This document shows, in pieces, positions 494 through 62,534 of a stretch of 64,000 nt of DNA (position 1 is its first letter; every line of letters starts with the position of its first letter). Made by a program: the position numbers and the translations under genes. The notes below the pieces were generated by a model, which was not told where the DNA came from, searched no databases, and saw nothing but the letters and a program-made list of their open reading frames with translations. The stretch covers positions 1,178,001 to 1,242,000 of the forward strand of contig CABDVE010000001.1 of NCBI GenBank assembly GCA_901420285.1, written 5' to 3'. Source of the stretch: Stutzerimonas stutzeri. GTDB taxonomy: Bacteria > Pseudomonadota > Gammaproteobacteria > Enterobacterales > Pasteurellaceae.

Positions 494-637
494 TGATTAT
501 AGCAATAAACCTGTTTTTCAGATATTAAACATATGCTTTTTATTGCTTTATGTAAGAAATACGGTTGATTTTGAGATGTTTTTATTTGTTTATCCCGTAG
601 TAACGCGAGTTCAATGCGGTGCTAATTCGGTATTCCA

Positions 638-2466
638 TTTCCGAGCTATTTATTCAGTAGTGAAGCTTAAATCTCGATGTCCACAAATGCGTGCACTTTT
701 CTAAGCTGCCTATTCGGCAGTGAAGTCCCTTTCCGTTTAGTTTTCCCAAATGGTCAATTTCTAAGCTGCCTATTCGGCAGTGAAGCTCAACCACCGCAAG
801 CGGTATTTTCGCCTGTCTTTCTAAGCTGCCTATTCGGCAGTGAAGTTTCCGCCCTGCATATGCTACCAACACAGACTTTTCTAAGCTACCTATTCGGCAG
901 TGAAGTTTAGGCTGTTTTCCAATACTTCCACATTACCTTTCTAAGCTGCCTATTCGGCAGTGAAGCGCCGACACTCGATTCATTGCTAAAAAAAGTGTTT
1001 CTAAGCTGCCTATTCGACAGTGAAGCGCGCTTGTGGCGACAGATTCGCGATAAGTGCTTTCTAAGCTGCCTATTCGGCAGTGAAGCCCAATCAGCTAACA
1101 TTTGGTTTGATGTTGCATTTCTAAGCTGCCTATTCGGCAGTGAAGTTTAACGCCTCAATCGCCGCCATCGGGTCTTTGTTTCTAAGCTGCCTATTCGGCA
1201 GTGAAGTTTGCTTTCTTTCGCGGTTACCGGGCGTTCTTTTTCTAAGCTGCTTATTCGGCAGTGAAGAAATCCTCTAATCCAAAGTAACCACAGGACTTTT
1301 TCTAAGCTGCTTATTCGGCAGTGAAGAAATTTAGCGAGTTGGAATTGACGGGGGAGCATTTCTAAGCTGCTTATTCGGCAGTGAAGACTCGCCGTGCGGT
1401 GCATGCCATACCGTTTGCTTTCTAAGCTGCTTATTCGGCAGTGAAGAGATCACTAGAGGAAATTGATATGGCAACCAATTTCTAAGCTGCTTATTCGGCA
1501 GTGAAGTCAAAGCAGCTATTGAACTGCACCGCTACAAATTTCTAAGCTGCCTATTCGGCAGTGAAGTTAGGGGGAAAGTTTATGCAAAAAAGGAAAATTT
1601 TCTAAGCTGCCTATTCGGCAGTGAAGGATTTTAAAGGCTTTAAATGGCACGCCCTAAATTTCTAAGCTGCCTATTCGGCAGTGAAGATGGGGTATAGTTA
1701 TGTTCAGCAAAGACAAAATTTCTAAGCTGCCTATTCGGCAGTGAAGCCGAAAGGGGCATTTATTGTACACCTTAGAAATTTCTAAGCTGCCTATTCGGCA
1801 GTGAAGTTCCGTTCCGACCAAGTCGGCAATAAATCCAATTTCTAAGCTGCCTATTCGGCAGTGAAGCAAAGCAAGGCGCAGGTGATGGGTTTGGACGATT
1901 TCTAAGCTGCCTATTCGGCAGTGAAGCCTTCGATTGCTGAAAGGCGGGTCGCATAAACTTTCTAAGCTGCCTATTCGGCAGTGAAGACAACGGAATACAA
2001 ATACATCGATGCTGCTCATTTCTAAGCTGCCTATTCGGCAGTGAAGTGTCGGATGCCGCCAACTTGAAGTGCGGTCAATTTCTAAGCTGCCTATTCGGCA
2101 GTGAAGGCATGCATTTCCTGTACGAATCCGATGCCGAATTTCTAAGCTGCCTATTCGGCAGTGAAGTGCGTTACGGCATTTCCCGTGATGAATTCATATT
2201 TCTAAGCTGCCTATTCGGCAGTGAAGTGAATTGATTCGTGTCGGCGTCTTTTTGATACTTTCTAAGCTGCCTATTCGGCAGTGAAGAAGAGGGGGCTTCG
2301 GCTTGGTTAAATGCAATGTTTCTAAGCTGCCTATTCGGCAGTGAAGCTCAACCACCGCAAGCGGTGTTTTCGCCATTCTTTCTAAGCTGCCTATTCGGCA
2401 GTGAAGGATTGCCTCCATATTCCAAGATCCGCGATTAATTTCTAAGCTGCCTATTCGGCAGTGAAG
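638..2466 (-). CRISPR. Type I-F CRISPR array, 31 repeats and 30 spacers
   Basis: Twenty-eight-base repeats recur every 60 bases with 32-base spacers; one spacer (1146-1178) has 33. Read on the minus strand the repeat has a CTGCC/GGCAG stem and ends CTTAGAAA, matching the type I-F repeat and its 8-base crRNA 5' handle (CTAAGAAA in the E. coli and Pseudomonas examples). The crRNAs are therefore on the minus strand, and the leader lies at the right end. The leftmost repeat (638-665) has 7 of 28 bases changed, as expected for the trailer end. Single-base variants occur at 878, at 998 and in a block of five repeats from 1239 to 1506. No cas gene is visible: lysS sits just past the leader, so Cas proteins must come from left of the window or elsewhere, or be absent. 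Confidence 0.97.
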
Positions 2467-2610
2467 TAGGCATTTTAATTGAAAATGCGGGGTATACCAA
2501 GCTATAGGCTTATTTAGGAAAGAAAATCCTTTTTTATTGTTATCTTTTAATTTATTGTTTTTAAAGGATAAATTTGGGGTGTGAAAATAAAGGGTAAAAT
2601 TGGATGGAAT
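2467..2610 (-). promoter_or_regulatory. Putative CRISPR leader
   Basis: An AT-rich stretch of about 140 bases abuts the last conserved repeat on the side that is upstream on the crRNA strand. It holds no ORF of note. Its position, base composition and the intact repeats beside it identify it as the leader, where transcription starts and new spacers are added. The exact promoter was not located. Confidence 0.6.
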
Positions 2611-2611
2611 T

Positions 2612-2639
2612 AAAAAGGAAGTCGAATGACTTCCTTTTT
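2612..2639 (-). terminator. Rho-independent terminator after lysS
   Basis: A 12-bp perfect stem AAAAAGGAAGTC / GACTTCCTTTTT with a GAAT loop lies 15 bases past the lysS stop. Its A/T arms supply a U tract in both directions, so it ends the prfB-lysS transcript and insulates the CRISPR leader. Confidence 0.85.
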
Positions 2640-2653
2640 ATCGTGATAAGAAA

Positions 2654-4162: not shown

Positions 4163-4214
4163 TTTTGTTTACCTTGTTTTTAAAATAAAAAATTCTGAGA
4201 AATGTGACCGCACT

Positions 4215-5313
4215 TTAGAGTCCGGCTTTCAAACTTGCTTCAATAAAACGATCTAAGTCACCGTCCAATACGGCTTGAGTATTACGATTTTCTACGCCGG
4301 TGCGCAAATCTTTAATGCGGGAATCGTCCAACACATAAGAACGGATTTGGCTGCCCCAGCCAATATCGGATTTACTTTCTTCCATTGCCTGTTTTTCAGC
4401 ATTTTTCTTCATCATTTCCATTTCAAACAATTTTGCTTTTAACTGTTTCATGGCTTGATCTTTATTTTGATGTTGGGAACGTCCATTTTGACATTGCACC
4501 ACAATACCGCTCGGCATGTGGGTAATACGCACCGCACTTTCGGTTTTGTTGACGTGCTGACCGCCTGCACCGGAGGCTCGATATACGTCGATACGCAAAT
4601 CGGCAGGGTTGATTTCAATATCAATATCGTCATCAATTTCCGGATATACAAAGGCTGCGCTGAAAGATGTATGGCGACGGTTGTTCGAATCGAACGGGCT
4701 TTTACGCACCAAGCGATGAATGCCGGTTTCCGTGCGTAGCCAACCATAAGCATATTCACCACTCACGCGAATGGTGGCGGATTTTAAGCCTGCCACATCG
4801 CCGTCGGAGACTTCTATGAGCTCGGTTTTGAAACCTTTGCTTTCCGCCCAACGTAAATACATACGCAACAACATTTCCGTCCAGTCTTGTGCTTCAGTAC
4901 CGCCGGAGCCCGCCTGCAAATCTACATAGCAATCACAAGCATCGTGTTCGCCGCTGAACATACGGCGGAATTCCAGTTTGGCGAGTTGTTGTTCCAGTTC
5001 GTCTAATTCTGCGACAGCTTCATTGAAGGTGTCTTCGTCTTCCGCTTCTACGGCAAGTTCCAACAAGCCGTCTACATCTTCTAAACCTTGCTCAAGATTT
5101 TTAATCGTGTTTACGACTTGTTCAAGAGAAACTCGTTCTTTGCCGAGCGCCTGCGCTTTCTCTGCGTTGTTCCATACATCAGGCTGTTCCAATTCGGCGT
5201 TGACTTCTTCTAAACGCTCAACTTTGGCATCGAAGTCAAAGATACCCCCGAAGCACGGCAGTGCGGTCGGTTAAATCGGTGATTTTATTTTTGATAGGAT
5301 TGATTTCAAACAT
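4215..5313 (-). CDS. prfB: Peptide chain release factor 2, programmed +1 frameshift
   Basis: RF2 reads UGA and UAA and releases the finished peptide. The gene is in two frames. Codons 1-25 run from ATG at 5313 and end at an in-frame TGA (5238-5236). Shifting +1 there continues into [12 protein letters not shown] and on to the stop at 4215. The slippery context on the minus strand is GGGGGTATCTTTGAC, with the Shine-Dalgarno-like G run and CTT-TGA-C of the classic RF2 autoregulation site. The full product is 365 residues, the same as E. coli RF2. Tripeptide SPF (codon recognition) and GGQ (peptidyl hydrolysis, in GAGGQHVNK) are both present. An annotation from the first internal start (5192) would be wrong. 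Confidence 0.97.
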
Positions 5314-6191: not shown

Positions 6192-7919
6192 GTGAACAAA
6201 CTCATCAAACGTCGCGAAATTCCCGTCGGAGAAGCTGTTTCGGAAGCACCGTTGTTGGATCGTCTTTATCGCGCACGCCACATCAAAAACAGTCAAGAAT
6301 TAGACCGCACTTTAAAATGTATGCTGAACCCGAATAAACTTCATGGCATCGAACGCGCTGTGGAATTATTGTTGGAAGCATACCGGCAACAGCAAAAAAT
6401 CATTATTGTCGGCGATTTTGATGCGGATGGCGCTACCAGCACCGCATTGACGGTGCTCGCATTGCGTCAGCTGGGCTTTAATAATGTGGATTATTTACTA
6501 CCGAATCGCTTTGAACAAGGCTACGGCTTGAGCATTCCGGTGGCGGAAATGGCGCTGGAAAAAGGCGTGCAACTTTTAATGACGGTGGATAATGGCGTAT
6601 CTTCGTTTGACGGCATTGCGTTTTTAAAAGAAAAGGGCGTGCGCGTTTTGGTTACGGATCACCATTTGCCGCCGGATACGTTGCCACCGGCTGATGCGAT
6701 TGTTAATCCGAATTTAAACGACTGCGCTTTTCCGTCGAAATCCTTAGCCGGCGTGGGGGTGGCATTTTATTTAATGTTGGCGGTGCGCGCCGAATTTCGC
6801 AATTTAGGGATTTTCAGCGCAGAAACGCAACCTAATTTCACCGAATTGCTTGATCTCGTCGCGCTTGGCACCGTTGCCGATGTCGTTCCGCTTGATCAAA
6901 ATAACCGCATTTTAATCCATCAAGGTCTACTGCGTATTCGTGCCAAGCGTTGTCGGCCGGGGATTATTGCCTTGGCAGAAGTGGCGAATCGCAATCCGGA
7001 ACAATTTTCTACCGCTGATCTTGGATTTTCTATCGCACCTCGTCTTAATGCGGCGGGACGTTTGGATAATATGTCGCTTGGTGTGGAATTATTACTTGCC
7101 AAGGATATGCAAAGCGCGCGCGAATTAGCGCTCGATCTTGATCAGCTCAATCAAACCCGCAAGGAAATCGAAGCGGGAATGAAATTGGAAGCGCTAAAAA
7201 TTTGCCGGAATTTTACCGGATTTTCTAATGAATTACCGATGGGCATTGCGCTTTATCAGCCGGATTGGCATCAAGGCGTGCTGGGCATTGTATCGTCGCG
7301 TATTAAAGATCAATATCACCGCCCCGTCATTGCGTTTGCGCAAGATGGCGAGGGTGTGCTGAAAGGTTCGGCGCGTTCTATCGAAGGCCTACATATGCGT
7401 GATGTATTAGAGCGCATTTATTCGCAGCAACCGAATATGATTTTAAAATTTGGCGGACATGCGATGGCGGCGGGATTGACAATTCGCGCGGAATGTTTCG
7501 ATGATTTTCGACGCGTTTTTAATCAAACCGTTACCGATTGGTTGGACGAAGAACATTTACAAGGCGTAATTTGGAGCGATGGCGAATTACGCAAAGACGA
7601 ATTTACTCTGGCAACGGCGGAATTGTTAAAAGCCGGTGGGCCTTGGGGACAAGCGTTTCCGGAACCTTGTTTCGACGGAGAATTCAACATTTTAGAGCAA
7701 CGTGCTATCGGGCAAAATCAAAATCACTTAAAAATGTTGGTGGAGCCGAAACGAGGCGGGCCGCTTTTAGATGCCGTCGTCTTTAATATCGACCCGCGAT
7801 TATATCCTGATTTATCCATTAAGCAGGCGCGTTTAGCCTATAAATTGGATATTAACGAATTTCGTGGCAATCGTAGTGTGCAATTATTAGTGGATTATAT
7901 CGAACCCATCGATGGCTAA
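6192..7919 (+). CDS. recJ: Single-stranded-DNA exonuclease RecJ
   Basis: RecJ degrades single-stranded DNA 5' to 3' in recombination and mismatch repair. The 575-residue product starts at GTG. The DHH phosphoesterase motif DFDADGATSTA is at residues 75-85, and VTDHHLP lies near 155. The DHHA1 domain with GGHAMAAG near residue 420 and a C-terminal OB fold complete the family layout. Length fits RecJ. It overlaps the next gene by 8 bases. dsbC next to recJ is a conserved gammaproteobacterial order. Confidence 0.96.
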   Translation: MNKLIKRREIPVGEAVSEAPLLDRLYRARHIKNSQELDRTLKCMLNPNKLHGIERAVELLLEAYRQQQKIIIVGDFDADGATSTALTVLALRQLGFNNVDYLLPNRFEQGYGLSIPVAEMALEKGVQLLMTVDNGVSSFDGIAFLKEKGVRVLVTDHHLPPDTLPPADAIVNPNLNDCAFPSKSLAGVGVAFYLMLAVRAEFRNLGIFSAETQPNFTELLDLVALGTVADVVPLDQNNRILIHQGLLRIRAKRCRPGIIALAEVANRNPEQFSTADLGFSIAPRLNAAGRLDNMSLGVELLLAKDMQSARELALDLDQLNQTRKEIEAGMKLEALKICRNFTGFSNELPMGIALYQPDWHQGVLGIVSSRIKDQYHRPVIAFAQDGEGVLKGSARSIEGLHMRDVLERIYSQQPNMILKFGGHAMAAGLTIRAECFDDFRRVFNQTVTDWLDEEHLQGVIWSDGELRKDEFTLATAELLKAGGPWGQAFPEPCFDGEFNILEQRAIGQNQNHLKMLVEPKRGGPLLDAVVFNIDPRLYPDLSIKQARLAYKLDINEFRGNRSVQLLVDYIEPIDG

Positions 7920-8628
7920 AACAATGACATGGCGGACAGCATTGCCTTGGATTTGCGTCGGTTTACTCTGCGCTTCCAATGCGGTGCTCGCGGAGTCTTC
8001 CGGTAGGGATTTTTCCGCCCGTATTCAACCGCATTTACCGGCGCCGAGTCAAACCCGCTTTAAGGACGGGCGCGATTATTTTTCTTATAAAGAACCCGTC
8101 AGACAGTCGCAGCGCGCGGACAATAAAATTCGCGTGCAATTTTTTTTCGATTACGATTGTCGCGTTTGCTCGTCGGCGCAGGATATTCTGGAACTGTACG
8201 GACAAATGCGCGCCAACAAAATTGCACTGGAACAGTATCCCGTTGCCACGGCAGAAAATCAATTCAGCGCACGTGTTTTTTACACGCTGAAAGCGCTTAA
8301 TGCGGATGAATTATCCGATGCATTGCTATTTGAAACGGCGGAAAAATCTCGCTATGCGGAGCTTTCCTCGCCAGCTAAAATACTTAAATGGGCGGAGCAA
8401 CAAGGTTTTGATAAACAGCTTTTTAGCCAAACGGAAAATTCGCCGGAAGTGAAAGAACGGGTTAAGCACGCCGTCGAATTAACGGAAGAGTATGGTGTAT
8501 TTACCTATCCTTATGTGGTAATCGGTGGGCGATACGTACTGACCGCCAGCACGCTTTATAATGACGATTACAGCGTGGCGGTGTTAGACTATTTAATTAA
8601 TAAATTAGAACAGGAGCATAAAGAATGA
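7912..8628 (+). CDS. DsbA-like periplasmic thiol oxidoreductase
   Basis: The 238-residue product has an N-terminal hydrophobic signal segment ending at SNAVLA (about residue 27) and a thioredoxin fold with CRVC at C83-C86. Later comes a helical insert and a cis-proline site in the YPYVVIGG stretch. This is the DsbA/DsbG superfamily; the CRVC dipeptide is not the CPHC of classical DsbA, so substrate and redox role are unknown. An alternative ATG at 7924 would shorten the N-terminus by four residues. It overlaps recJ by 8 bases and mtnN by ATGA, so the three genes are probably one operon. Confidence 0.8.
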
Positions 8629-9405: not shown

Positions 9406-9447
9406 AAATAGCACCGCATTGAAACCGCGTTCAATGCGGTGCTATTT
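9406..9447. terminator. 18-bp perfect hairpin made of two opposed CACCGCATTG motifs
   Basis: The arms 9406-9423 and 9430-9447 are exact reverse complements with a six-base loop (ACCGCG). Each arm holds one copy of the dispersed motif (AGCACCGCATTGAA). The A/T ends can act as a terminator tail. It lies between mtnN, which already has its own terminator, and the ABC transporter gene. The rest of 9365-9624 shows only AT-rich upstream sequence. Confidence 0.75.
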
Positions 9448-12511: not shown

Positions 12512-13734
12512 TAAAAATTAATCGTGCGCGATTATTGGGATTACTGCATGATTTCGCGCAATTCGGCAAAACTGAAAATAACGGTGTGACGCGTCTTGCT
12601 TTATCCGATGAGGATAAATTGGCGAGAGACTATTTTATTAAGCTGGCAACGCAGGCGGGTTTTTCCGTTAAAGTCGATGCTATCGGCAATATTTTTGTTC
12701 GACGGGAAGGCAAACAAGCTCAATTAGCACCAATTTTGATCGGTTCACATGGGGATTCTCAACCGTTAGGCGGCCGCTATGATGGAATTTATGGCGTGTT
12801 GGCGGGGCTTGAAGTATTACTATCGCTTAATCAGCACCGCATTGAAACCGAACGTCCTGTCGATCTTGTGATGTGGACGAATGAAGAAGGCGCGCGTTTT
12901 GCTCCTGCAATGATGGGCGCGGCGGTTTTTACCGGAAAATTGTCTCTTGACGAAGCGTTTAAGAAACAAGATAAACAGGGCATAAGCGTTAAATCGGAAT
13001 TGGAACGCATCGGTTATTTAGGTAACGATGATTTTTCTAATTATAAACCTCATGCCGCCTTGGAACTTCATATTGAACAAGGGCCGATTCTTGAACGTAA
13101 TCATACGGATATCGGCATTGTGAGCGGTGCATTAGGGCAAAATTGGTATCGAATTCAATTAGACGGGGTGGCCTCTCACGCCGGAACAACACCGATGAAT
13201 CTGCGTCGTGATGCAGGCATTGGTATGGCGGAAGCAATGGTGAAATTCAATGAATTGGGGTTGAGGGAAATAGGAAATCAAGGGCGGGTTACAGTTGGCT
13301 CAATTCAACTTACCCCGAACTCACCGAATGTGATTCCCGGTCGATCTAATTTTAGTTTAGAAGTACGCCATCCTAGCCGGCATTCTTTAGAGCAAATTGA
13401 TCGGGAAATTCGCCAAATTTTAGCTGATGTCGCCGACAAGCATCAATTGGCTGTTCAACTTAATCAAGTAGCAAAGCTGGCGCCCTTGACGTTTAATTCC
13501 GAGTTACTTGAAACGCTCCGACAAACGGCAGATGAACTAGGGTATTGTCGGGAAGATATTGTTTCCGGCGCCGGGCATGATTCTTGCCACTTAAACGACA
13601 AAATGCCGACGGCGATGCTCTTTATTCCTTGTATCGACGGATTAAGCCATAACGAATTGGAAAATATTAAGGATGAGTGGTGCGAGAAGGGCTGTAATAT
13701 GCTTTTCCATGCGGTATTAAAATTAGCGCAATAA
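12508..13734 (+). CDS. N-carbamoyl-L-amino acid hydrolase, M20 family
   Basis: The 408-residue metal hydrolase belongs to the HyuC/AmaB/allantoate amidohydrolase branch of M20. Metal-binding and catalytic motifs are present: GSHGDSQPLGGRYDG near residue 80, TNEEGARFAP near 127, ELHIEQGP near 190, the dimerisation-domain GVASHAGTTPM near 225 and GAGHDSCH near 355. It removes a carbamoyl group from an N-carbamoyl amino acid. With an ATC hydrolase immediately upstream (4-base overlap), N-carbamoyl-L-cysteine is the likely substrate, giving L-cysteine, CO2 and ammonia. Allantoate is the main alternative, but no purine-degradation gene is near. Confidence 0.85.
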   Translation: MIKINRARLLGLLHDFAQFGKTENNGVTRLALSDEDKLARDYFIKLATQAGFSVKVDAIGNIFVRREGKQAQLAPILIGSHGDSQPLGGRYDGIYGVLAGLEVLLSLNQHRIETERPVDLVMWTNEEGARFAPAMMGAAVFTGKLSLDEAFKKQDKQGISVKSELERIGYLGNDDFSNYKPHAALELHIEQGPILERNHTDIGIVSGALGQNWYRIQLDGVASHAGTTPMNLRRDAGIGMAEAMVKFNELGLREIGNQGRVTVGSIQLTPNSPNVIPGRSNFSLEVRHPSRHSLEQIDREIRQILADVADKHQLAVQLNQVAKLAPLTFNSELLETLRQTADELGYCREDIVSGAGHDSCHLNDKMPTAMLFIPCIDGLSHNELENIKDEWCEKGCNMLFHAVLKLAQ

Positions 13735-13778: not shown

Positions 13779-14453
13779 ATGATGGGAATAATTATTACCG
13801 TAGATGGCCCGAGCGGAGCCGGAAAAGGCACCTTGTGTTATGCCTTGGCGGAAAAATTAGGCTATGCTTTGCTTGATAGCGGAGCAATTTATCGGGTTAC
13901 GGCGCTGGCGGCACTGAAAAATGCGGTGGATTTGACTGACGAATTCGCTTTGGCTGAATTGGCACGTAAGTTAGATATTCAATTTATTCCGCAAGAGGGC
14001 GAGGTGAATGTTTTGTTAAACGGTGAAAATGTTAGCCGTTTAATTCGCACCCAAGAAGTGGCAGAAGCTGCCTCAAAAGTGGCGATTTTTCCGCAAGTTC
14101 GTGCTGTTTTATTGCAAGTTCAACAGGATTTCGCGAAAAATGATGGTTTGATTGCCGACGGACGGGATATGGGAACGGTTGTGTTTCCAAATGCACAAGT
14201 AAAATTGTTTTTAGACGCCAGTGCGGAAGAACGTGCAAAAAGACGTTATAACCAGTTGCAAAATAAGGGAATTAATGGTAACTTTGCGCAGATTTTAGCC
14301 GAGATAAAAGATCGCGATTTTCGTGACAGAAATCGCCAAGTAGCCCCCCTTAAACCGGCTGAAGATGCGTTGTTGCTGGATAGCACCGCATTGAGCATCG
14401 ACCAAGTGATTGCGCAAGCGTTAACTTATATTCGACAGCGCATAGACAATTAA
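13779..14453 (+). CDS. cmk: Cytidylate kinase
   Basis: The 224-residue enzyme phosphorylates CMP and dCMP. The P-loop GPSGAGKGT is at residues 10-18, the NMP-binding region includes LDSGAIYR, and [11 protein letters not shown] is the usual CMP kinase motif. GGTGAGG precedes the first of two adjacent ATG codons. cmk-rpsA-ihfB is the conserved order in enteric and Pasteurellaceae genomes. Confidence 0.96.
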
Positions 14454-19337: not shown

Positions 19338-21233
19338 GTGGCACTTATTAATTTAACCAACGGATATCTTTCTTTCAGCGATGCGCCTTTGTTGGATCAT
19401 GCAGAGTTACATATAGAACCTAACGAACGTGTTTGTTTGGTCGGTCGCAACGGCGCAGGCAAATCCACATTGCTTAAAATTATTGCCGGTGATGTCACCA
19501 TGGATGATGGCAAAGTGCAGTATGAAAAAGACTTGGTGGTTTCCCGTTTAGAACAGGATCCGCCACGTCATGCTGAAGGCAATGTATTTGATTATGTGGC
19601 CGAAGGGATTGGACATTTGGCCGATTTGTTAAAGGAATATCATCATATTTCTGTGCAATTGGAGCAAGATTATAGCGAGCAGACATTAAACCAACTTGCC
19701 CAAATTCAAGCAAAATTGGAACATGCCAATGGCTGGCAATTTGAAAATAAAATCAATGAAGTATTACAAAAATTAGAATTAAACCCAAAGACTAAACTCG
19801 CCGATTTATCCGGCGGCTGGTTGCGCAAAGCTGCTTTGGCGCGCGCCTTGGTGTGTAATCCCGATGTATTGTTGTTAGATGAACCAACGAACCATTTAGA
19901 TGTGAATGCTATTGAATGGTTAGAAAATTTCTTGTTAGAGTTTAGTGGCAGCATTGTGTTTATTTCCCACGACCGTTCTTTTATCCGCAAAATGGCCACC
20001 CGCATTGTGGATTTAGATCGCGGTAAATTGGTTTCTTACCCCGGCAACTATGATTTATACCTTACCACCAAAGAAGAAAATTTGCGGGTGGAAGCCTTGC
20101 AAAATGAATTATTCGATAAACGCTTGGCGCAAGAAGAAGTGTGGATTCGCCAAGGCATCAAAGCCCGCCGTACCCGTAATGAAGGGCGTGTGCGCGCGTT
20201 AAAAGCTATGCGTGAAGAACGTCGCCAACGCCGCGAGGTGCTCGGCACGGCAAAATTGCAGTTAGATACGTCCAGCCGCTCCGGCAAAATCGTGTTTGAA
20301 ATGGAAGACGTCAGCTACAACATCAATGACAAACCGCTTCTTAAAAATTTCAGTACTACCATTTTACGTGGCGATAAAATCGCCTTAGTTGGTCCGAATG
20401 GTTGCGGTAAAACCACTTTTATCAAATTGTTGCTCGGTGAAATTCAGCCGACAAGTGGTTCCATTCGTTGCGGCACGAAATTAGACATTGCTTATTTTGA
20501 TCAATACCGCGCAGATCTTGATCCGGAAAAAACCGTTATGGATAACGTCGCCGACGGCAAACAAGACGTAGAAGTCAACGGTATCAAACGCCATGTGTTG
20601 GGCTATTTACAGGATTTCTTGTTCCCACCGAAACGCGCCATGACGCCGGTCAAAGCCCTCTCCGGCGGCGAACGAAACCGTTTGTTATTGGCAAAACTCT
20701 TGTTAAAACCGAATAATTTATTGATTCTCGATGAACCGACTAACGATTTAGACGTGGAAACCTTGGAATTATTGGAAGAAATCCTCACTGATTACCAAGG
20801 CACGTTGCTTATCGTCAGCCACGATCGTCAGTTTATCGATAATACCGCCACGGAATGCTACATCTTTGAAGGCGACGGCGTGCTGAACAAATACGTCGGC
20901 GGCTTTTTTGATGCAAAACAACAACAGGCCAATTATTTTCTCGCTAAATCGACATTGGAAGTGCCGAAGAGCACCGCATTGAAACCCAAGAGTATCAAGC
21001 TTTCTTACAATGAGCAGCGTGAGCTGGAACAATTGCCGCAATTATTGGAAGAATTAGAGAAAAAACTCACTTCTCTGCAAGCCGAAGTTGGCGAATCCGA
21101 TTTTTTTCAGCAATCCCATGACGTGACAAATGCGAAGCTAAAAGAACTGGCGGATACCGAGGTTGAGCTGGAAACCGCTTTTTTACGATGGGAAGAATTG
21201 GAAGAGAAGAAAAATTGGACGGAGAGTAAATAA
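19338..21233 (+). CDS. uup: ABC-F ATPase Uup
   Basis: The 631-residue cytosolic ABC-F protein has two ATPase domains and no membrane segment. The first has GRNGAGKST, LSGGWLRKAALARAL and LLLDEPTNHLD; the second has GPNGCGKTT, LSGGERNRLLLAKLL and LILDEPTNDLD. A C-terminal coiled coil (about 560-631) is typical of Uup, which acts on ribosomes and branched DNA. GTG at 19338 is preferred: GAGG precedes it and it begins the family N-terminus (ALINLTNGYLSF). The open frame upstream to 19260 looks like a non-coding extension. The gene contains a CACCGCATTG motif at 20972. Confidence 0.94.
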   Translation: MALINLTNGYLSFSDAPLLDHAELHIEPNERVCLVGRNGAGKSTLLKIIAGDVTMDDGKVQYEKDLVVSRLEQDPPRHAEGNVFDYVAEGIGHLADLLKEYHHISVQLEQDYSEQTLNQLAQIQAKLEHANGWQFENKINEVLQKLELNPKTKLADLSGGWLRKAALARALVCNPDVLLLDEPTNHLDVNAIEWLENFLLEFSGSIVFISHDRSFIRKMATRIVDLDRGKLVSYPGNYDLYLTTKEENLRVEALQNELFDKRLAQEEVWIRQGIKARRTRNEGRVRALKAMREERRQRREVLGTAKLQLDTSSRSGKIVFEMEDVSYNINDKPLLKNFSTTILRGDKIALVGPNGCGKTTFIKLLLGEIQPTSGSIRCGTKLDIAYFDQYRADLDPEKTVMDNVADGKQDVEVNGIKRHVLGYLQDFLFPPKRAMTPVKALSGGERNRLLLAKLLLKPNNLLILDEPTNDLDVETLELLEEILTDYQGTLLIVSHDRQFIDNTATECYIFEGDGVLNKYVGGFFDAKQQQANYFLAKSTLEVPKSTALKPKSIKLSYNEQRELEQLPQLLEELEKKLTSLQAEVGESDFFQQSHDVTNAKLKELADTEVELETAFLRWEELEEKKNWTESK

Positions 21234-24200: not shown

Positions 24201-24452
24201 ATTACGCACCACCAAATCGCCAATATCGCTTTTTGTCGCTGATTTGACCACAGAATCCACCGCACTTTCAGGCAGCTGCGGATTAAGTTTGCGCACCGCC
24301 TCACGTAGTTGCTCAATAAAGACTACGCCGCTCAAATCGCCACGGGCAAACTCGCCTTCATGAACAGGCAAATCTTTACCATAGCGATATTCCCAACCGA
24401 GGGATTGCAGGCGTTGAAGAGTGAGTTGTTCGATGTCGTTTTCGTTGAGCAT
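21289..24452 (-). pseudogene. hsdR: Type I restriction subunit HsdR, frameshifted
   Basis: The N-terminal open frame (24452 to 23235, 405 residues) holds the nuclease domain with a VVFELKNP-type motif and helicase motif I (HTQGSGKS). It ends at TAA 23237-23235. Removing two bases from ATTATATTG (near 23240-23249) restores [16 protein letters not shown], helicase motif II, and joins the second frame that runs to 21289 with GFTGTP and the C-terminal domains. Together they would be about 1,050 residues, normal for HsdR. As read, helicase motifs I and II are in different frames, so restriction should be lost. A sequencing error cannot be excluded. One AAGTGCGGT lies at 24259. Confidence 0.88.
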
Positions 24453-29859: not shown

Positions 29860-29881
29860 GGTTTTTCCTATTTAAAAGTGC

Positions 29882-29907
29882 GGTCAAAAATAAAACGTTT
29901 TTTGACC
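29882..29907 (-). terminator. Hairpin after nth, next to an uptake sequence
   Basis: GGTCAAAAA and TTTTTTGACC form a stem with a seven-base loop, just past the nth stop. The arm begins inside an AAGTGCGGT copy at 29876-29884. The T-rich arm would end the rsx-nth transcript on the minus strand. Confidence 0.6.
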
Positions 29908-36206: not shown

Positions 36207-36904
<698 letters not shown>

Positions 36905-36978: not shown

Positions 36979-37074
36979 CACCGCATTGAACCTTCCAAAC
37001 GGCACCGCATTGAACCTTCCAAACGGCACCGCATTGAACCTTCCAAACAGCACCGCATTGAACTTTCAAAACGG
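36979..37074. repeat. Four tandem 24-bp repeats carrying the CACCGCATTG motif
   Basis: Between the rsxA start and the norM stop, a 24-bp unit (CACCGCATTGAACCTTCCAA plus ACGG) occurs four times with motifs at 36979, 37003, 37027 and 37051; the last unit differs slightly and a decayed fifth follows to about 37091. The rest of 36866-37139 is ordinary upstream sequence for rsxA. The plus-strand frame across it is an in-frame artefact of the 24-bp period. Confidence 0.93.
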
Positions 37075-37139: not shown

Positions 37140-38543
37140 TTATTTCAATTTTTCCAATCGCGCCATCAGTACATCATCGCTTAAACTTTGAGTTTTGCGC
37201 ATTCGGTAAAACAGTAGTACCGCGGCAAAGGTGAGCGAGACGACAAAGGCGAGCCAAAACCCTTGAGCGCCGATGCTTGGCATCAGTAAATCCGTGCGGG
37301 CGAGGACGTAACCTAACGGAATGCCGATCACCCAATAGGAAAACAGCGTGATGTAGAGAATGACTTTGGTGTCTTTATAACCGCGTAACACGCCGCCAAC
37401 GACCACTTGAACGGTGTCGGAGAACTGGTAAATCGCGGCAAGAAAAAGCAAGGTTGCGGCCATGTTGATTACGATTTCGTCTGTTACAAAAATTGCGGCA
37501 ATTTGGTAACGATAGAAAATGGTGATGAACGCAGTGACAATGGTGAGCGTTAGGCCTAGCAGCAATGCGGCATAAGACAGCTTTTTCGCTTTTTCAGGCG
37601 CGCCCGCACCGAGTGCTTGACCGACTAAAATCGTCGTCGCCATGCCGATGGACATAGGGAACATAAAAATAAACGAGCTGGTATTCAGTGCAATTTGATG
37701 GCTTGCCACAATGTTCGTGCCCAACGGCGAAAGCAATAGGGCGGTAATGGCGAATAGCGCCACTTCACAACAAAGCGCGATGGCAATCGGTAAACCCAAC
37801 TGAAGTAATTTTTTTAAGGTCGCGCCGTTGGGTTTTTCAATAATTTTGCTGAACACCTGCAATTTGCGTTCTTGTCGATTGAAGTAAGAATAACCGATCA
37901 TCATCAAGCACATTGACCAGTTCACGATTGCTGTAGCAATGCCGCAACCTACCGCACCGAAGGCGGGAATCCCCAGTTTGCCGTAAATAAAAATATAGTT
38001 AAGCGGAATGTTCAGCATTAAACCGAGAAAGGTAATCACCATGGCCGGTTTGGTTTTTGCAATGCCGTCGTTTAAGCAGCGGAAATTCATCAGTAATAAA
38101 TAAGCCGGTAAGCCCCAAAGCATAGCGTGCAAATAATCTTGTGCAATATGCGCCATATGCGGTTCCATTTGCATAAAGCGTAGGGCGAAATCGCTGTAAT
38201 AAATCAGTATGCCGAGCGGAATACAGCTCGCCAAAGCAATCCAAATGCCTTGCCGAATTTGGTGTGCAATGCGGTGCTGTTGGCCGGATCCGTTTAAATA
38301 AGATACCGTTGGCGGTAGTGCGAGCAATAAGCCGTGGCCGAATAATACAAGAGGCAGCCAAATGGAGGCGCCGACGGAAATCGCCGCCATATCGGTAGCG
38401 CTCACACGCCCCGCCATGATGGTATCCACCAAGCCCATGGAGTTTTGCGCAATTTGCGCCAATAAAATCGGCAGTGCAATTTTGATGAGTCTTTTAATAT
38501 CGGCGTGATAAGACGACAGTTGGGAGAAAAGACGAAAATTCAT
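37140..38543 (-). CDS. norM: MATE-family multidrug efflux protein NorM
   Basis: The 467-residue inner-membrane antiporter has twelve helices. The family start [29 protein letters not shown] is present. NorM exports cationic drugs with Na+ or H+. ATG at 38543 is preferred to TTG at 38564 because it begins the family N-terminus. It diverges from ribE with about 45 bases between. Confidence 0.94.
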
Positions 38544-39276: not shown

Positions 39277-39320
39277 AAAACAGCACCGCATTGAAGTAAC
39301 TTTCAATGCGGTGCTGTTTT
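39277..39320. terminator. 19-bp perfect hairpin of opposed motifs between convergent genes
   Basis: Arms 39277-39295 and 39302-39320 are exact reverse complements (AAAACAGCACCGCATTGAA on the left), loop GTAACT. The AAAA/TTTT ends suit termination both ways between ribE and the dedA-type gene. Each arm carries the CACCGCATTG motif. Nothing else is seen in 39200-39406. Confidence 0.85.
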
Positions 39321-41439: not shown

Positions 41440-42330
41440 ATGAGCTGGATTGACCGAATTTTTAGTAAAAACCCGTCTTCTTCAACACGTAAAGCGAACG
41501 TACCGGAAGGGGTTTGGACAAAATGCACTGCATGCGAACAAGTGCTTTATAGCGAAGAATTAAAACGTAATCTTTATGTGTGTCCGAAGTGCGGTCATCA
41601 TATGCGAATCGATGCGCGCGAACGTCTTTTACATTTGTTGGACGAAGGCTCAAGCCACGAAATCGCTGCCGATTTAGAGCCGAAAGATATTTTAAAATTT
41701 AAAGATTTAAAAAAATATAAAGATCGCATTAGCACCGCACAAAAAGAAACCGGCGAAAAAGACGCACTAATTACGATGACCGGCACCCTTTATAATATGC
41801 CAATCGTAGTTGCGGCCTCTAATTTTGCCTTTATGGGCGGTTCAATGGGTTCCGTAGTCGGTGCGAAATTTGTGAAAGCGGCGGAAAAAGCAATGGAATT
41901 AAATTGCCCGTTCGTTTGTTTCTCGGCCAGCGGCGGTGCGCGTATGCAAGAAGCGCTTTTCTCATTGATGCAAATGGCGAAAACCAGTGCGGTGCTCGCA
42001 AGGATGCGCGAAAAAGGTGTGCCGTTTATTTCCGTATTAACCGATCCTACATTGGGCGGTGTTTCCGCCAGTTTCGCCATGTTAGGTGATTTGAATATCG
42101 CCGAACCAAAAGCCTTAATCGGTTTTGCCGGTCCGCGCGTGATTGAACAAACTGTTCGCGAAAAATTACCGGAAGGCTTCCAACGTAGCGAATTCTTATT
42201 AGAAAAAGGCGCGATCGATATGATCGTAAAACGTGGCGATATGCGTCGTACTTTGGCAAGCGTATTAAGCAAATTAACCAATCAACCTTCACCTTTTGCT
42301 GAGTCCGAATTTATTCAACATGAAGCATAA
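41440..42330 (+). CDS. accD: Acetyl-CoA carboxylase carboxyltransferase beta subunit
   Basis: The 296-residue subunit makes malonyl-CoA with AccA, first step of fatty acid synthesis. The N-terminal zinc ribbon has [10 protein letters not shown]...VCPKCGHHM (about 28-50), and the carboxyltransferase core shows SGGARMQE and GPRVIEQT. An AAGTGCGGT uptake site falls inside the zinc ribbon codons (41587-41595). Confidence 0.97.
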
Positions 42331-42331
42331 T

Positions 42332-43636
42332 ATGAATTTAAAAGCCACTTCGCCACTCGCTGAGTGGCTTTCTTATTTGGAAAACAGTCATTTTAAAGCC
42401 ATTGATCTCGGCTTGGAACGAATTAAAAAAGTCGCGGCAAAACTCGATCTTTTAACACCGGCGCCTTATGTCATCACGGTGGGAGGAACCAACGGAAAAG
42501 GCACCACTTGCCGTTTGTTAGAAACAATTTTGCTTAATCACGGCTTACGCGTAGGCGTCTATTCATCGCCGCATTTGTTGCGTTACAACGAACGCGTGCG
42601 TATTCAAAATCAGGATTTACCCGATGAAGTGCATACGGCGTCTTTTGCCTTTATTGAACAAAATAGAACTGAATCGCTCACTTATTTTGAGTTTAGTACA
42701 CTTTCTGCGTTGCATTTATTTAAACAGGCAAATTTAGATGTGGTGATTCTCGAGGTGGGATTGGGTGGCCGTTTAGATGCGACGAATATTGTGGATAGTA
42801 ATCTTGCGGTGATCACCAGTATTGATATTGATCATACGGATTTTCTCGGCGACACGCGCGACGCTATTGCTTTTGAAAAAGCCGGAATTTTCCGTGAAAA
42901 TTGTCCGCTAGTGATTGGTGAACCGAATGTACCAAACAGTATGCTTGCACAAGCAGCACGTTTGCATTGCAAGGTTTCCCGCAGAGATGTGGATTGGTCG
43001 TTCCGACAAAATAACGAAAGTTGGCAATGGCGAAGTAGCAAAAAACGCTTGGAAAATCTTCCATTTTGTCAAATTCCGTTGATGAATGCGGGCACCGCAT
43101 TGGCGGTGCTTGAGCAGCTGCCTTTTGATATTAGCGAACAAACCGTTCGTCAATCTTTGCAAGAAGTGGAACTTGTTGGACGCTTCCAAACGATTAAAGC
43201 GGATAAGCGGGAAAAACTTGCCTCTTTTGTCGCTAAAGATATAAAGACATTGCCTACGGTCATTATTGATGTGGGACACAATCCCCATGCCGCCACCTAT
43301 TTAGCGGAAAAACTCAGCGCATTGAAAGCTCGAACTTCGGGCAAACTCATCGCCGTATGCGGGATGTTGAAAGATAAAGACGCAAGTGGCGTATTTAAGC
43401 AGCTTATGTCGTTAATCGATGAATGGCACTGCGTTACCTTAGACGGTTATCGCGGTCAATGCGGTGCTGATTTGTTAAGTAAACTCGTCAGCGTTTCCCC
43501 AACGGTTAAGGCTGTCGCCGAAAATTCCGTTATCGATGGCATAAAAGCCGCGTTAACCAACGCGTCTTCAAATGATATTGTTTTAGTATTTGGTTCGTTC
43601 CACACGGTTGCAGAATTTTGCCGGGTAGTGGAATAG
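42332..43636 (+). CDS. folC: Dihydrofolate synthase/folylpolyglutamate synthase
   Basis: The 434-residue ligase adds glutamate to dihydropteroate and folates. The P-loop GGTNGKGTTCRLLE lies near 50, SSPHLLRYNERVRI near 75, and a later EVGLGGRLDATN. ATG at 42332, one base after the accD stop, fits family length; ATG at 42320 overlapping accD is possible. The accD-folC order is conserved. It contains two CACCGCATTG motifs (43093, 43457). Confidence 0.95.
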   Translation: MNLKATSPLAEWLSYLENSHFKAIDLGLERIKKVAAKLDLLTPAPYVITVGGTNGKGTTCRLLETILLNHGLRVGVYSSPHLLRYNERVRIQNQDLPDEVHTASFAFIEQNRTESLTYFEFSTLSALHLFKQANLDVVILEVGLGGRLDATNIVDSNLAVITSIDIDHTDFLGDTRDAIAFEKAGIFRENCPLVIGEPNVPNSMLAQAARLHCKVSRRDVDWSFRQNNESWQWRSSKKRLENLPFCQIPLMNAGTALAVLEQLPFDISEQTVRQSLQEVELVGRFQTIKADKREKLASFVAKDIKTLPTVIIDVGHNPHAATYLAEKLSALKARTSGKLIAVCGMLKDKDASGVFKQLMSLIDEWHCVTLDGYRGQCGADLLSKLVSVSPTVKAVAENSVIDGIKAALTNASSNDIVLVFGSFHTVAEFCRVVE

Positions 43637-43674: not shown

Positions 43675-45813
43675 TTATTTTTCTTGATATTTTTGAAAAT
43701 ATTCGTAAATAGGCGGCAATAGTTGCGCGATTAGATTCAGTTGCTGAAACGGAATCGCAAAAGCGGATTTTTCTTTAATTTGGCTTTCATTCCATTGAAT
43801 TTCTTTTAAGCTTGATTCAATATTTTCTCGCAATTTAGCGAAGACTTCGGGCGAGAGTTTTTCGATATTTTCTAGCGCATAGATAATTTTTTTCGCGGTA
43901 GGATAGAAACCGGCGAGAAACTGCGCAGTTTGTTGGAGTTTCGTCATTCGATAACGGTAAGAACCGAGTGCGGAGATGTAACTCAATAACGAATAATTGA
44001 TTTTTAATAAGTCAAAACCTTCTTGCAGATAAGCTTGATATTTTTGTGGTTCATTATTCATATTGGACAAAGTTGTGCTTAATGCCGCCGCGTATTGATG
44101 CGCATTACGGCGGGCGATACGATATTTCAAATCGTCGCTTTTACCGAATTGTAATTGAGCGATGATATGCAGCAAATATTGCGCATCGCTACGAATAGCT
44201 TGTCGGCTGACTTTGTCCAGTTGCAAATATTTCCAATCAGGCCATAGATAAGACACGGCAAACCAAGATATTGCGGTGCCGACTAAGGTGTCGAGCAGAC
44301 GCGGCAAGAGCGCGGTGGCAGCGCCGAAGCCCATGACGTCGAAACTGATTAACACTTGCAAGGTAATAAAGAATGTGGAAAAGCTGTAATTATTACTACG
44401 GAAGAAGAAAAACAGCGTGCAGGTGAGTACCATTAACCCCAGTTGCATTTCTAATGTTGGATTTAAATAAGGTAAGGATGAGCCGACCAATACGCCTAAA
44501 ATCGTGCCGATAATACGTTGGCGTAAGCGGTTTTTAGTTGCTGAGTAGTTCGGTTGGCAGACGAAAACCGCGGTAAGCAAAATCCAGTAACCAAGATTGA
44601 ATTGGAAAAATTCGACAATCGCGCAGCAAATAAACACCACAATCGAAAGTCGAACTGCATGACGAAAGAGCGGCGACTCAAGCGTGAAATTGCTCAAGAT
44701 GACCGAGATGATATTTTTAAAACCGATGATTTGTTCGGTGTGGATTTGCGCGATTGGGTCATTTTCGCCGCCTTCTTGTTCCAACTGACGAAGTTGCCAG
44801 TTAATGCTTTGCAGATTATCCAGCAACGTTTGAATAACTAATAATTGCTCGCTTTGCGCACAATGCCGGCTGTAAAGTTCAAAAGACTGTATGGTGCCGA
44901 GCATCGCTTTTTCGACCCGTCGATTATGTTGATAAGATCGATTTTCACGCAGTGCGGCTGCGATTTCACGGCACGCTTGGGCTTGCAGTTCAAGTAGGCG
45001 TTGAATGCGGAAAATCAGATCGGTATTTTTTAATTGTTCGGCGATTTGTTTGTAATCAAAATGGCTTGAATTGGCGCGTTCATGAATGTCTTGTGCGGTG
45101 AAATAATAGCGAATCATACGTCGCGTGCGAGGATGGCGATGCTGTCCACGAATACGGTAAAACAATGTCGTGCGCGCAAGATTAAAAGCGCTAACTACGT
45201 TGGTGTTTTTCATCGCAAAGTTGAAATGTTTTTTTTCAATTTCATCGGTTTCGTCAGGATCAAAAAATTCCGATTTCGCATCCAAATATTCGCCCAAGGC
45301 GTAAAAGGCTTTCGCCACGCTTTCTTGTACCGGGCGATTGGGGAAAATCAGATATACGATAAGTGTAACCAAACTGTAAAGCAGCGTACCGATAATGATC
45401 ATCAGCGGATTGACATACCAATTTAGCACCGCATTGGGCGAGTAAGTCAGTGTGGTGTAAACGGCAATAACCAAGGTGCCGAAGGCAATGGTTTTGTAAC
45501 GTTCGCCGATAGCACCAATCATCGTAAACAGGAAAGTGCCCAATGTCATTAAAATCAGGTAAGACAGCGCATGCCCGATATTAAGTTGCACGATGACGGC
45601 AGATAGCGTGAAAGCGATGAGTGTATAAAAAATATTTTTTAATCGACCGGTTAAACGATTATCCAAATCCACCAAACCACCGGCAATAATACCCAACACT
45701 AAAGGCATAGACTGATTGGAAATATCAAACCACCAAATGCCGAAAGCGGCGATGTTCACCGCAATAAAAACGGGAATAGCGGCAATGACTTTTGCGTTTA
45801 ACCAGTGATTCAT
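43675..45813 (-). CDS. yccS: YccS-like FUSC-family inner membrane protein
   Basis: The 712-residue product has two blocks of about six membrane helices (about 10-150 and 390-520) each followed by a soluble helical part, the FUSC/YccS layout known from aromatic acid efflux relatives. The role of YccS itself is not settled. Length compares with about 717 in E. coli. A CACCGCATTG motif is at 45427. Confidence 0.9.
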   Translation of the reverse strand: MNHWLNAKVIAAIPVFIAVNIAAFGIWWFDISNQSMPLVLGIIAGGLVDLDNRLTGRLKNIFYTLIAFTLSAVIVQLNIGHALSYLILMTLGTFLFTMIGAIGERYKTIAFGTLVIAVYTTLTYSPNAVLNWYVNPLMIIIGTLLYSLVTLIVYLIFPNRPVQESVAKAFYALGEYLDAKSEFFDPDETDEIEKKHFNFAMKNTNVVSAFNLARTTLFYRIRGQHRHPRTRRMIRYYFTAQDIHERANSSHFDYKQIAEQLKNTDLIFRIQRLLELQAQACREIAAALRENRSYQHNRRVEKAMLGTIQSFELYSRHCAQSEQLLVIQTLLDNLQSINWQLRQLEQEGGENDPIAQIHTEQIIGFKNIISVILSNFTLESPLFRHAVRLSIVVFICCAIVEFFQFNLGYWILLTAVFVCQPNYSATKNRLRQRIIGTILGVLVGSSLPYLNPTLEMQLGLMVLTCTLFFFFRSNNYSFSTFFITLQVLISFDVMGFGAATALLPRLLDTLVGTAISWFAVSYLWPDWKYLQLDKVSRQAIRSDAQYLLHIIAQLQFGKSDDLKYRIARRNAHQYAAALSTTLSNMNNEPQKYQAYLQEGFDLLKINYSLLSYISALGSYRYRMTKLQQTAQFLAGFYPTAKKIIYALENIEKLSPEVFAKLRENIESSLKEIQWNESQIKEKSAFAIPFQQLNLIAQLLPPIYEYFQKYQEK

Positions 45814-46600: not shown

Positions 46601-46689
46601 AATTACTCCTTTTATTTATGAATGAGAATCGTCGCCTATGCTATGCTAATTTTCAGAAAAATAAAATAGTAAAGTGCGGTTAAACCGAA

Positions 46690-55444: not shown

Positions 55445-55445
55445 A

Positions 55446-56006: not shown

Positions 56007-56034
56007 AACCGCACTTTAGATTTATTGAGCCCGT

Positions 56035-56706: not shown

Positions 56707-56856
56707 AATTTACACTCCATTTGTTAATTGAACTTATCTGATAAAAATAGTAGGTTATTTTCTTTCGAAAGGAAAGCGGATTACATAATTTCTTAGTGAA
56801 TTTATGACCTAAATCAAGCAAAATACATCCGAATAGGTAGGTAAAAGGATGCAAAT

Positions 56857-57126
56857 ATGACAAAAAAATTTCTTGTTTTCGGACGTGTACAAGGTGTGGG
56901 ATTTCGTTATTTTACTTGGCAAGAAGCGAAAAAATTGGGGCTTAAAGGCTCGGTTCGCAACCGCATTGACGGCTCGGTAGAAGTGATTGCGCAAGGCGAC
57001 GAGACACAAATGGCGGATTTTGAAGAGTGGCTTAATAAAGGGCCTAAAACGGCGAAGGTGGAACGCGTGTTGGTGTTTGAACAGGAGGAAATCAAGATGT
57101 CGAGTTTTTCCATTGTTCGGCGTTGA
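56857..57126 (+). CDS. acyP: Acylphosphatase
   Basis: The 89-residue enzyme hydrolyses acyl phosphates. The signature GRVQGVGFRYFTW (phosphate loop and catalytic Arg) and the catalytic Asn in SVRNRIDGSVEV are present. Length is standard. It diverges from ytfE. Confidence 0.95.
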   Translation: MTKKFLVFGRVQGVGFRYFTWQEAKKLGLKGSVRNRIDGSVEVIAQGDETQMADFEEWLNKGPKTAKVERVLVFEQEEIKMSSFSIVRR

Positions 57127-57156
57127 GATCTTGTTTTAGCACCGCATTGGAGGCTT

Positions 57157-61199: not shown

Positions 61200-61344
61200 T
61201 TTATCAAGTCCTCTTTTTTATTTCAATGGACTGATCGGACAAGTTCAGCGAACAAATGTTTGCCGTTTACAGTTTTTATTATTCCTTTTAGAATGCACGC
61301 CTGTCAGTAATAAGCTGAATAAAACAGAGAAAAAAGGAAGGAAA

Positions 61345-61878
61345 ATGCAAAACACTTGTACACCAAATAAAAAAGAAAGCTACAGCTACGAGGATTTACT
61401 CGCTTCCGGTCGCGGTGAATTATTTGGTGCCGAAGGTCCGCAACTCCCCGCGCCGACCATGTTAATGATGGATCGTATCGTAAAAATGACTGAAGACGGT
61501 GGCGCGTTTAATAAAGGTTACATTGAAGCGGAATTGGATATTCATCCTGATTTACCGTTTTTCGGATGTCATTTTATCGGTGATCCGGTGATGCCGGGTT
61601 GTTTAGGCTTGGATGCAATGTGGCAACTGGTTGGCTTCTTCCTCGGTTGGGTCGGCGGTAAAGGGAAAGGCCGCGCACTTGGCGTTGGCGAAGTGAAATT
61701 TACCGGTCAAATTTTACCTTCTGCCAAGAAAGTGATTTATCGCATTAACATGAAACGTGTAATTAATCGTAAATTGGTAATGGGCATGGCGGATGGCGAA
61801 GTGGAAGTAGATGGCCGCGTGATCTATACTGCGACGGATCTTAAGGTTGGATTGTTCCAAGATACGTCGAGTTTTTAA
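61345..61878 (+). CDS. fabA: 3-Hydroxydecanoyl-ACP dehydratase/isomerase
   Basis: The 177-residue enzyme makes the cis-3 bond that starts unsaturated fatty acid synthesis. The active-site His lies in [19 protein letters not shown] near residue 75, the catalytic Asp in the same stretch (LGLDAM). GAAGGA precedes the ATG. Confidence 0.97.
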
Positions 61879-61897
61879 GATTTTAATGATTGATGAG

Positions 61898-61930
61898 AAG
61901 CCTTAGTTAGAGATAGCTAAGGCTTTTTGT
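61898..61930 (+). terminator. Terminator after fabA
   Basis: AAGCCTTAG / CTAAGGCTT with a ten-base loop, then a T run (TTTTGTTTT). Confidence 0.9.
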
Positions 61931-62054
61931 TTTATTACATTGGGTTGCGTCCGATGAGTTACTTACTCTTCTTTTTCGATCTCTTCTTTTTTTGATACTA
62001 AGAAAATAGAAGAATTTAATTTATTATCACTAAAGGCCAAGCAATAAAATAAAC

Positions 62055-62534
62055 TTATTCTTCATCAACCACATCCATAAATTCCGCCCCCAGCAATTTA
62101 GCCAGATCTTTCGGAGCTAATTCCACACTCAAACCTCGTTTTCCACCGGATACATAAATCGTCTCGAATTCCAATGCGGTGCTGTTTATGAAGGTCTTTA
62201 AATGTTTTTTCTGGCCTAGCGGGCTGATTCCGCCCACTAAATAACCGGTGCTTTTTTGTGCGCTCTCTTTATCTGCCATTTCCACTTTTTTTGCGCCGAC
62301 AGATTTGGCGGCTTTTTTCAAGCTGAGCATATTGGATGTCGGCAACACGAAACAGGCGAGTTTTTTCTGGTCGCCATTTTCCGCGACAAGTAAGGTTTTA
62401 AAAGAACGATGGGGATCGATGCCTAATTTTTCCGCCGCTTCGTCACCGAAATGCGTGTTATGCGGATCATGATCGTAAGTATGCGGAATAAAAGGAACTT
62501 TTTGTTTTTTAAGTAAATCAATTGCGGGTGTCAT
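62055..62534 (-). CDS. ybaK: Cys-tRNA(Pro) deacylase YbaK
   Basis: The 159-residue enzyme frees cysteine from mischarged tRNA-Pro. The YbaK family marks are visible: [20 protein letters not shown] near 27-46 and the catalytic Lys region [15 protein letters not shown] near 62-76, with [14 protein letters not shown]. It diverges from usg. Confidence 0.95.

Follow-up and report, generated by a model that had tools for sequence, protein, structure and literature searches.

Uptake signal sequences (USSs) of the Pasteurellaceae have so far been treated as two subclade-wide dialects (PMC1626085, PMC12616744), the Hin type (AAGTGCGGT, Haemophilus influenzae and relatives) and the Apl type (ACAAGCGGT). 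Uptake favors a cell's own dialect and other diverged specificities are allowed for (PMC1626085), and all 150 source genomes are overrepresented in one or other of the two named types, whose 9-mers were counted (PMC12616744). The variant AAGCGGT was proposed for H. ducreyi from abundance alone (PMC1852404). In the Neisseriaceae, DNA uptake sequences (DUSs) form eight dialects around a fixed core in one family, and these dialects are barriers to interspecies transformation (PMC3630211). Here, we analyzed a stretch of 64,000 nucleotides (the window; positions 1,178,001 to 1,242,000 of contig CABDVE010000001.1, assembly GCA_901420285.1) in which the 10-mer CACCGCATTG recurs on both strands. Sequence comparison makes it very probable that one Rodentibacter-group species, nested among Hin-type relatives, has a new USS dialect of its own, with the reverse complement, CAATGCGGTG, as the core. 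The predicted function is DNA uptake, and the layout differs from both described types.

Abundance of the motif in the window, the genome and the family

The window contains 28 exact copies of CACCGCATTG between positions 612 and 62181, compared with a mean of 0.17 and a maximum of 2 in 100 dinucleotide shuffles. CACCGCATTG and CAATGCGGTG are one motif read from either strand. The Hin-type signal AAGTGCGGT has 11 exact copies (shuffle mean 0.43) and shares TGCGGT with CAATGCGGTG. Open reading frames (ORFs) of at least 150 amino acids hold 18 of the 28 copies, and 10 lie outside them. An earlier note on this DNA, made from the letters alone, had reported the excess, the shared TGCGGT and the placement on both strands, inside and between genes, and all of this held. 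It also gave an extended flank, AGCACCGCATTGAA, which is roughly right since AG in front is common and the following base is mostly A or G, but it missed that the motif is longer and bipartite.

Across the whole genome (1,931,086 bases), the new motif occurs 1164 times (531 and 633 by strand), versus 4 for the reversed pattern. A second strain of the species, G129, carries 1176 copies (628 and 548 by strand). The species is rodent-associated. Each of the other 138 of 140 family genomes searched has 0-38 copies, and the longer form CAATGCGGTGC, with 1090 copies here, reaches at most 20 in any of the other 393 of 394 genomes searched in the order. The earlier note had proposed a diverged uptake dialect, had reasoned that near-chance counts beyond the window would speak against it and had suggested comparing related species; these counts speak for it on both points. 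The Hin-type signal is reduced to 357 copies here (control 42; about 185 per Mb) and 334 in G129, versus 1270-1816 in each of 13 congeners. The Apl-type signal is not enriched, with 42 copies versus 50 for its reversed control.

Word counts were made in a 444-kb sample, comprising the window, stretch L004 and 18 further stretches of the same genome. The commonest 9-mers were AATGCGGTG (270), ATGCGGTGC (263) and CAATGCGGT (261), and AAGTGCGGT, which is the commonest USS-like 9-mer by the Hin-type definition, reached only 99. At each length listed, the top word was a piece of CAATGCGGTGCT. Expected counts under a fourth-order Markov model and observed counts were 0.49 and 181 for CAATGCGGTGCT, 7.1 and 224 for CAATGCGGTG, 22.9 and 261 for CAATGCGGT, and 13.4 and 99 for AAGTGCGGT. 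A high share of perfect copies is typical of USSs (PMC1626085). The 12-mer CAATGCGGTGCT has 181 perfect and 85 one-mismatch copies and the 11-mer 214 and 93, while the Hin-type signal has 99 and 197 here, 163 and 156 in congeners, and 159 and 135 in Haemophilus. Because these ratios differ, the new motif looks maintained and the Hin-type signal looks like a decaying leftover.

The window copies are listed below, with strand given as the one reading CACCGCATTG and gene names assigned by eye. Eight of the 28 copies fall in two clusters, one of four at 24-bp spacing (36979-37060) and one of four in a 192-bp repeat of an rsxC-like gene (33345-33930).

612..621, minus: new motif, outside ORFs of at least 150 amino acids
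5487..5496, minus: new motif, signal peptide of DsbC-like protein (ASNAVLA); all 13 congeners are one codon shorter
6440..6449, plus: new motif in recJ (STAL); congeners align without gaps
7977..7986, minus: new motif, signal peptide of thioredoxin-fold-like protein (ASNAVLA); an extra codon nearby in 7 of 13 congeners
9412..9441 (9412-9421 plus, 9432-9441 minus): inverted pair of new motifs, hairpin downstream of mtn-like gene
12835..12844, plus: new motif in hydantoinase/carbamoylase-like gene
14384..14393, plus: new motif in cmk-like gene
20972..20981, plus: new motif in ABC-F (uup-like) gene
31498..31507, minus: new motif in rsxG-like gene
33345..33930 (33345, 33537, 33729, 33921), plus: four new motifs at 192-bp spacing, rsxC-like gene repeats
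36827..36836, minus: new motif in rsxA-like gene
36979..37060 (36979, 37003, 37027, 37051), plus: tandem array of four new motifs, 24-bp period; three copies in strain G129
38267..38276, minus: new motif in MATE-transporter-like gene
39284..39313 (39284-39293 plus, 39304-39313 minus): two inverted new motifs, forming a hairpin where the ribE-like and dedA-like genes converge
43093..43102, plus: new motif in folC-like gene
43457..43466, minus: new motif in folC-like gene
45427..45436, plus: new motif in yccS-like gene
57140..57149, plus: new motif, outside ORFs of at least 150 amino acids
61102..61111, plus: new motif in Lon-like protease gene
62172..62181, minus: new motif in ybaK-like gene

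The rsxC-like protein (33174-35621) has C-terminal repeats of 64 amino acids, four of which hold one new-motif copy each.

Anatomy of the motif and its inverted pairs

The anatomy was read from 214 CAATGCGGTGC copies; 88 of these were isolated, lying more than 60 bp from any other TGCGG or CCGCA. In the consensus, TYCAATGCGGTGCT is followed by a position where T hardly ever occurs, by a short AT-rich segment and by TTCR, whose C lies 24 bp beyond the first C. This gives a rough bipartite form, YCAATGCGGTGCT(V)WWW...TTCR, with TTCR standing where the usual second AT tract would. The C at +24 was present in 59 of the 88 isolated copies; at the next position, the isolated copies have A (0.42) and G (0.41). 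Among the 22 isolated copies outside stop-free frames of at least 450 bases, the C was found in 20, a purine next in 21 and a base other than T at +12 in all 22. By reading-frame class, the C occurred in 15/22, 14/28, 9/12 and 1/4 copies; being present across classes, it is not bound to one codon phase. Tandem arrays share the 24-bp period (12 such spacings in the sample), and the CA of the next copy lands on the CR position. The isolated copies are not simply array remnants, since A and G are about equal at the R position, and they conserve particular flank bases only, with no copied unit.

The described USS layout combines the consensus ANNNGCGGT with two downstream AT-rich segments. The new motif has C as its first base, lacks the 5' A run, shows a weaker first AT tract and carries TTCR in place of the second. 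The inner GCGG core is present in CAATGCGGTG. Residual Hin-type copies in this genome still carry Hin-type AT tracts. One tentative reading, which we hold possible but somewhat short of even, is that the recognition architecture was swapped, from a 9-mer with two AT tracts to a bipartite base-specific site of YCAATGCGGTGCT and TTCR at a fixed 24-bp offset, 24 bp being also the exact array period. The receptor complex would then make base-specific contacts with DNA at two points separated by about 24 bp, and uptake specificity would have been rebuilt within one species' divergence from its genus, closing off relatives' DNA.

Neighboring copies at most 50 bp apart in the sample were arranged -+ in 31 cases, +- in 2, ++ in 9 and -- in 7. 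By comparison, AAGTGCGGT pairs in 70 stretches of Hin-type relatives were +- in 39, -+ in 34 and ++ in 2 cases. At other distance limits, H. influenzae USS pairs were 50 +-, 25 -+, 1 ++ and 0 -- (Kingsford et al., PMC1852404). The -+ preference fits the anatomy, because the T-rich flank now lies on the 3' side (GCTATTTT) and a -+ pair therefore gives an A-stem-T hairpin. The window pairs 9412/9432 and 39284/39304 folded at -31.7 and -33.6 kcal/mol, respectively, and none of 200 shuffles was as stable. The second pair was absent from a simple terminator scan of 36800-39500, a range that does not reach the 9412 pair (3 sites found, shuffle mean 3.6); the scan probably missed it through its T run being paired inside the stem. 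The earlier note's inverted pairs do form long hairpins. Paired copies were probably co-opted as transcription terminators.

Origin of the copies, competence genes and competing explanations

Coding copies examined so far point to substitution. At the recJ copy (window 6440), 13 congeners have codons such as AGT ACG GCA TTA, which align without gaps to AGC ACC GCA TTG here. Two recC copies take the place of other codons. The alignments, which include the second strain, show indels in 0 of 71 sequences for one copy and in 4 of 70 for the other. In this small sample, the examined coding copies appear to have arisen by substitution and not by copying. At the two signal peptides (5487 and 7977), whose ends read SNAVLA, the motif itself encodes those residues, and uptake signals may in this way shape signal-peptide sequence.

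In-place conversion of old to new signals was considered and dropped. Sixteen rows of coding sites with a Hin-type signal in at least three congeners gave 14 distinct ancestral sites, as two rows were the same sites in overlapping frames; 2 are intact here, 12 have decayed and none was converted to the new motif. At one recC site that has the new motif here, 25 of 70 aligned sequences from Hin-type genera read the Hin-type signal. This site falls outside the set defined by that signal in at least three congeners, and conversion may have occurred elsewhere than at the 14 sites. Several remaining Hin-type copies stand at sites shared with relatives. The earlier note had suggested a motif in the course of replacing the other; the outcome is as it said, and the route seems to be turnover. 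The two strains are 97.7-98.0% identical in the three regions compared. There, G129 lacks two Hin-type copies and one array unit, and it has two new-motif copies that this genome does not share. The only point-mutation differences in the new 10-mer are two copies present in G129 and absent in this genome.

ComEC, TfoX/Sxy and secretin matches carry no internal stop in either strain, and both comNOPQ, which lies upstream of recC, and a single pilA were found; these are the competence genes examined. ComN is the predicted USS receptor (PMC12616744). Protein distances were compared with 72 Hin-type sequences each for ComN, ComO, ComP and ComQ (the two own strains included, G080 excluded), 73 for RecC and 15 genus genomes for PilA. 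Own-to-congener over congener-to-congener distances were 1.64, 1.99, 1.74, 1.27 and 1.47 for ComN, ComO, ComP, ComQ and RecC, respectively, and own-to-Haemophilus over congener-to-Haemophilus distances were 1.04, 0.97, 1.17, 1.01 and 1.09. PilA gave 0.208 versus 0.160, a ratio of 1.30. None of the pilins stands out on both measures, ComP slightly excepted. Five residues of ComN at variable columns are private (M8, V64, E74, N113, S140), and a conserved column carries E123A, which congener G128 shares. The distances of ComN, ComO, ComP, ComQ and PilA single out no protein, and we make no claim about the receptor.

In the wider family, two of the 140 genomes lack a recC match; of the 120 genomes examined, 115 have comNOPQ in their recC stretch. 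The misses were G124, on a short contig, and four genomes of group g17. Of the g17 stretches, three extend 6.8-7.2 kb upstream from the recC match and the fourth just 0.9 kb, so that loss of comNOPQ is no more than suggestive. Neither known signal is strongly enriched in g17 (Hin-type 62, 29, 40 and 114 versus controls 57, 39, 35 and 50; Apl-type near control). G080, which groups with genomes of the H. parainfluenzae type, has 205 copies of the Hin-type signal versus 1276-1481 in the other ten of its group, as well as a diverged ComN; it may have lost the signal or its competence.

The earlier note's diverged uptake dialect has several lines of support in the sequence. As with USSs generally, copies run to hundreds or thousands on both strands far above chance (1164 and 1176), and both strains are rich in them while the other 138 family genomes are at chance level. 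Perfect copies exceed near-perfect ones in the 12-mer and the 11-mer, the recJ and recC copies are consistent with mutation, the examined competence genes have open frames, and TGCGGT is shared with the Hin type.

A dispersed insertion repeat, of the repetitive extragenic palindrome or miniature inverted-repeat transposable element kind, would spread by copying and could account for the long palindromes and 24-bp tandem arrays, one of which differs by one unit between strains. Such a repeat is exceedingly improbable here, since at recJ and recC the motif takes the place of aligned codons and gaps are few or absent, ORFs of at least 150 amino acids enclose 18 of the 28 window copies, and isolated copies conserve particular flank bases instead of a unit. 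A chromosome-maintenance or regulatory site, whether Chi-, KOPS (FtsK-orienting polar sequence)- or SlmA-like or a transcription-factor site, would fit the spread of the motif, which every one of the 20 sampled stretches contains at 0.25-0.75 per kb, and its modest strand difference. We regard this as very improbable, because orientation follows GC skew weakly (r = -0.32 over 20 stretches, given without a significance test), the USS core TGCGGT is shared, bulk occurrence is confined to the species whose USS is depleted relative to congeners, and close copies are often inverted or tandem. To our knowledge, such sites are rarely private to a species.

Some family members show none of four signals clearly, so the motif could also be a relic dialect, formerly used by a species that is now non-competent. 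This is improbable: the examined competence genes are open, perfect 12-mers outnumber one-mismatch copies (181 versus 85), unlike the Hin-type signal here, and in the three regions compared the two strains differ by point mutation in the 10-mer only at two copies, present in G129 and absent in this genome.

Some observations weigh against an uptake dialect. The short 9-mer CAATGCGGT alone has 261 perfect and 296 one-mismatch copies, the strands differ modestly (531 and 633), and inverted pairs have the C at +24 less often (27/52). One other-frame alignment has indels in 8 of 28 sequences, and two of the three new-motif sites in the recJ region, those in the signal peptides, involve one-codon length differences, this genome being one codon longer than 13 of 13 congeners at 5487 and one shorter nearby than 7 of 13 at 7977. 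ComN is not clearly faster than RecC (1.64 versus 1.47; 1.04 versus 1.09). The species is represented by two strains only, about 98% identical in the three regions, and their comparison, with too few sites, was dropped as proof of selective upkeep.

A private uptake dialect remains the reading we favor. The pilus-based uptake machinery of this lineage would have changed its DNA preference, kin DNA with chance matches to the new preference would have been taken up and recombined more often, and matching sequences would thereby have accumulated in the genome. The old Hin-type signals, now at a roughly fourfold deficit versus congeners, would have decayed as leftovers. Replacement of the tag probably reflects a recent change in the DNA recognized as "self". 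A species whose dialect is unlike that of 13 congeners offers a close before-and-after comparison, which makes testable the protein that sets USS specificity, genome rewriting after a switch and genetic isolation by dialect change. It also shows that a count restricted to the two known 9-mers can give a false picture, as the leftovers alone, at about 185 Hin-type copies per Mb, lie well above the lowest USS density accepted in PMC12616744, 31 per Mb.

Restriction regions, a further dialect and comparison with known systems

The Hin-type copies of the window, all exact AAGTGCGGT, were as follows.

2067..2075, plus: Hin-type signal
4207..4215, minus: Hin-type signal
4531..4539, minus: Hin-type signal
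6304..6312, minus: Hin-type signal in recJ; same site in 10 of 13 congeners (relict)
24259..24267, minus: Hin-type signal, type I restriction region
25950..25958, plus: Hin-type signal, type I restriction region
28077..28085, plus: Hin-type signal, type I restriction region
29876..29884, plus: Hin-type signal between two ORFs
41587..41595, plus: Hin-type signal in accD-like gene
46672..46680, plus: Hin-type signal between two ORFs
56008..56016, minus: Hin-type signal between two ORFs

The type I restriction region (21289-28227), with hsdM-, hsdS- and hsdR-like frames assigned by eye, has three Hin-type signals and lacks the new motif, as if acquired from a Hin-type donor. Its hsdR-like part is split into two frames (23235-24452 and 21289-23190). 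At 46935-54997, a second hsdM/hsdS-like pair is flanked by two IS1595-like transposase frames, likewise assigned by eye, and the stretch around it (45437-57139) has no exact new-motif copy.

A further uptake dialect, AAACCGCGGTCAAA, appears to be carried by G085, the sole genome searched of another genus. It contains 845 copies of CCGCGGTCA (control 1), and the other 139 genomes have at most 33. The consensus was taken from 15 copies in 41.6 kb, and downstream of it lie AT-rich stretches resembling the Hin-type ones. The Hin-type and Apl-type signals are near control in G085 (48 versus 56 and 37 versus 36, respectively). The core of the G085 signal, ACCGCGGT, is a palindrome.

A text search of the literature pairing uptake signal sequence with Rodentibacter found none, most subscription papers being outside its reach. 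Among the literature matches listed for CAATGCGGT and three further motif strings, none concerned DNA uptake by title, and no such dialect was reported in the title or abstract start of the listed matches.

Among the described systems close to the new motif is the Hin-type USS, the signal of all 13 congeners. Both contain A.TGCGGT, both lie in and between genes on both strands at about one copy per 1.7 kb, and both form hairpins from close inverted pairs. In the new 9-mer, however, positions 1 and 3 are C and A, not A and G, and CA after the core is changed to GC(T). The 5' A run, the two AT tracts and the absence of 24-bp tandem arrays separate the Hin type further, and close inverted pairs are nearly all -+ in the new motif, whereas Hin-type relatives show both orders. 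The Apl-type USS shares GCGGT but marks a subclade, whereas the new dialect was found in one species. AAGCGGT of H. ducreyi lies within the Apl-type core; the new motif is a different sequence, in a Hin-type genus. The Neisseriaceae DUS resembles the Pasteurellaceae USS in having dialects around a fixed core within one family, but the DUS core is CTG and the element is contiguous, up to about 13 bases (PMC12616744), whereas the new motif is bipartite.

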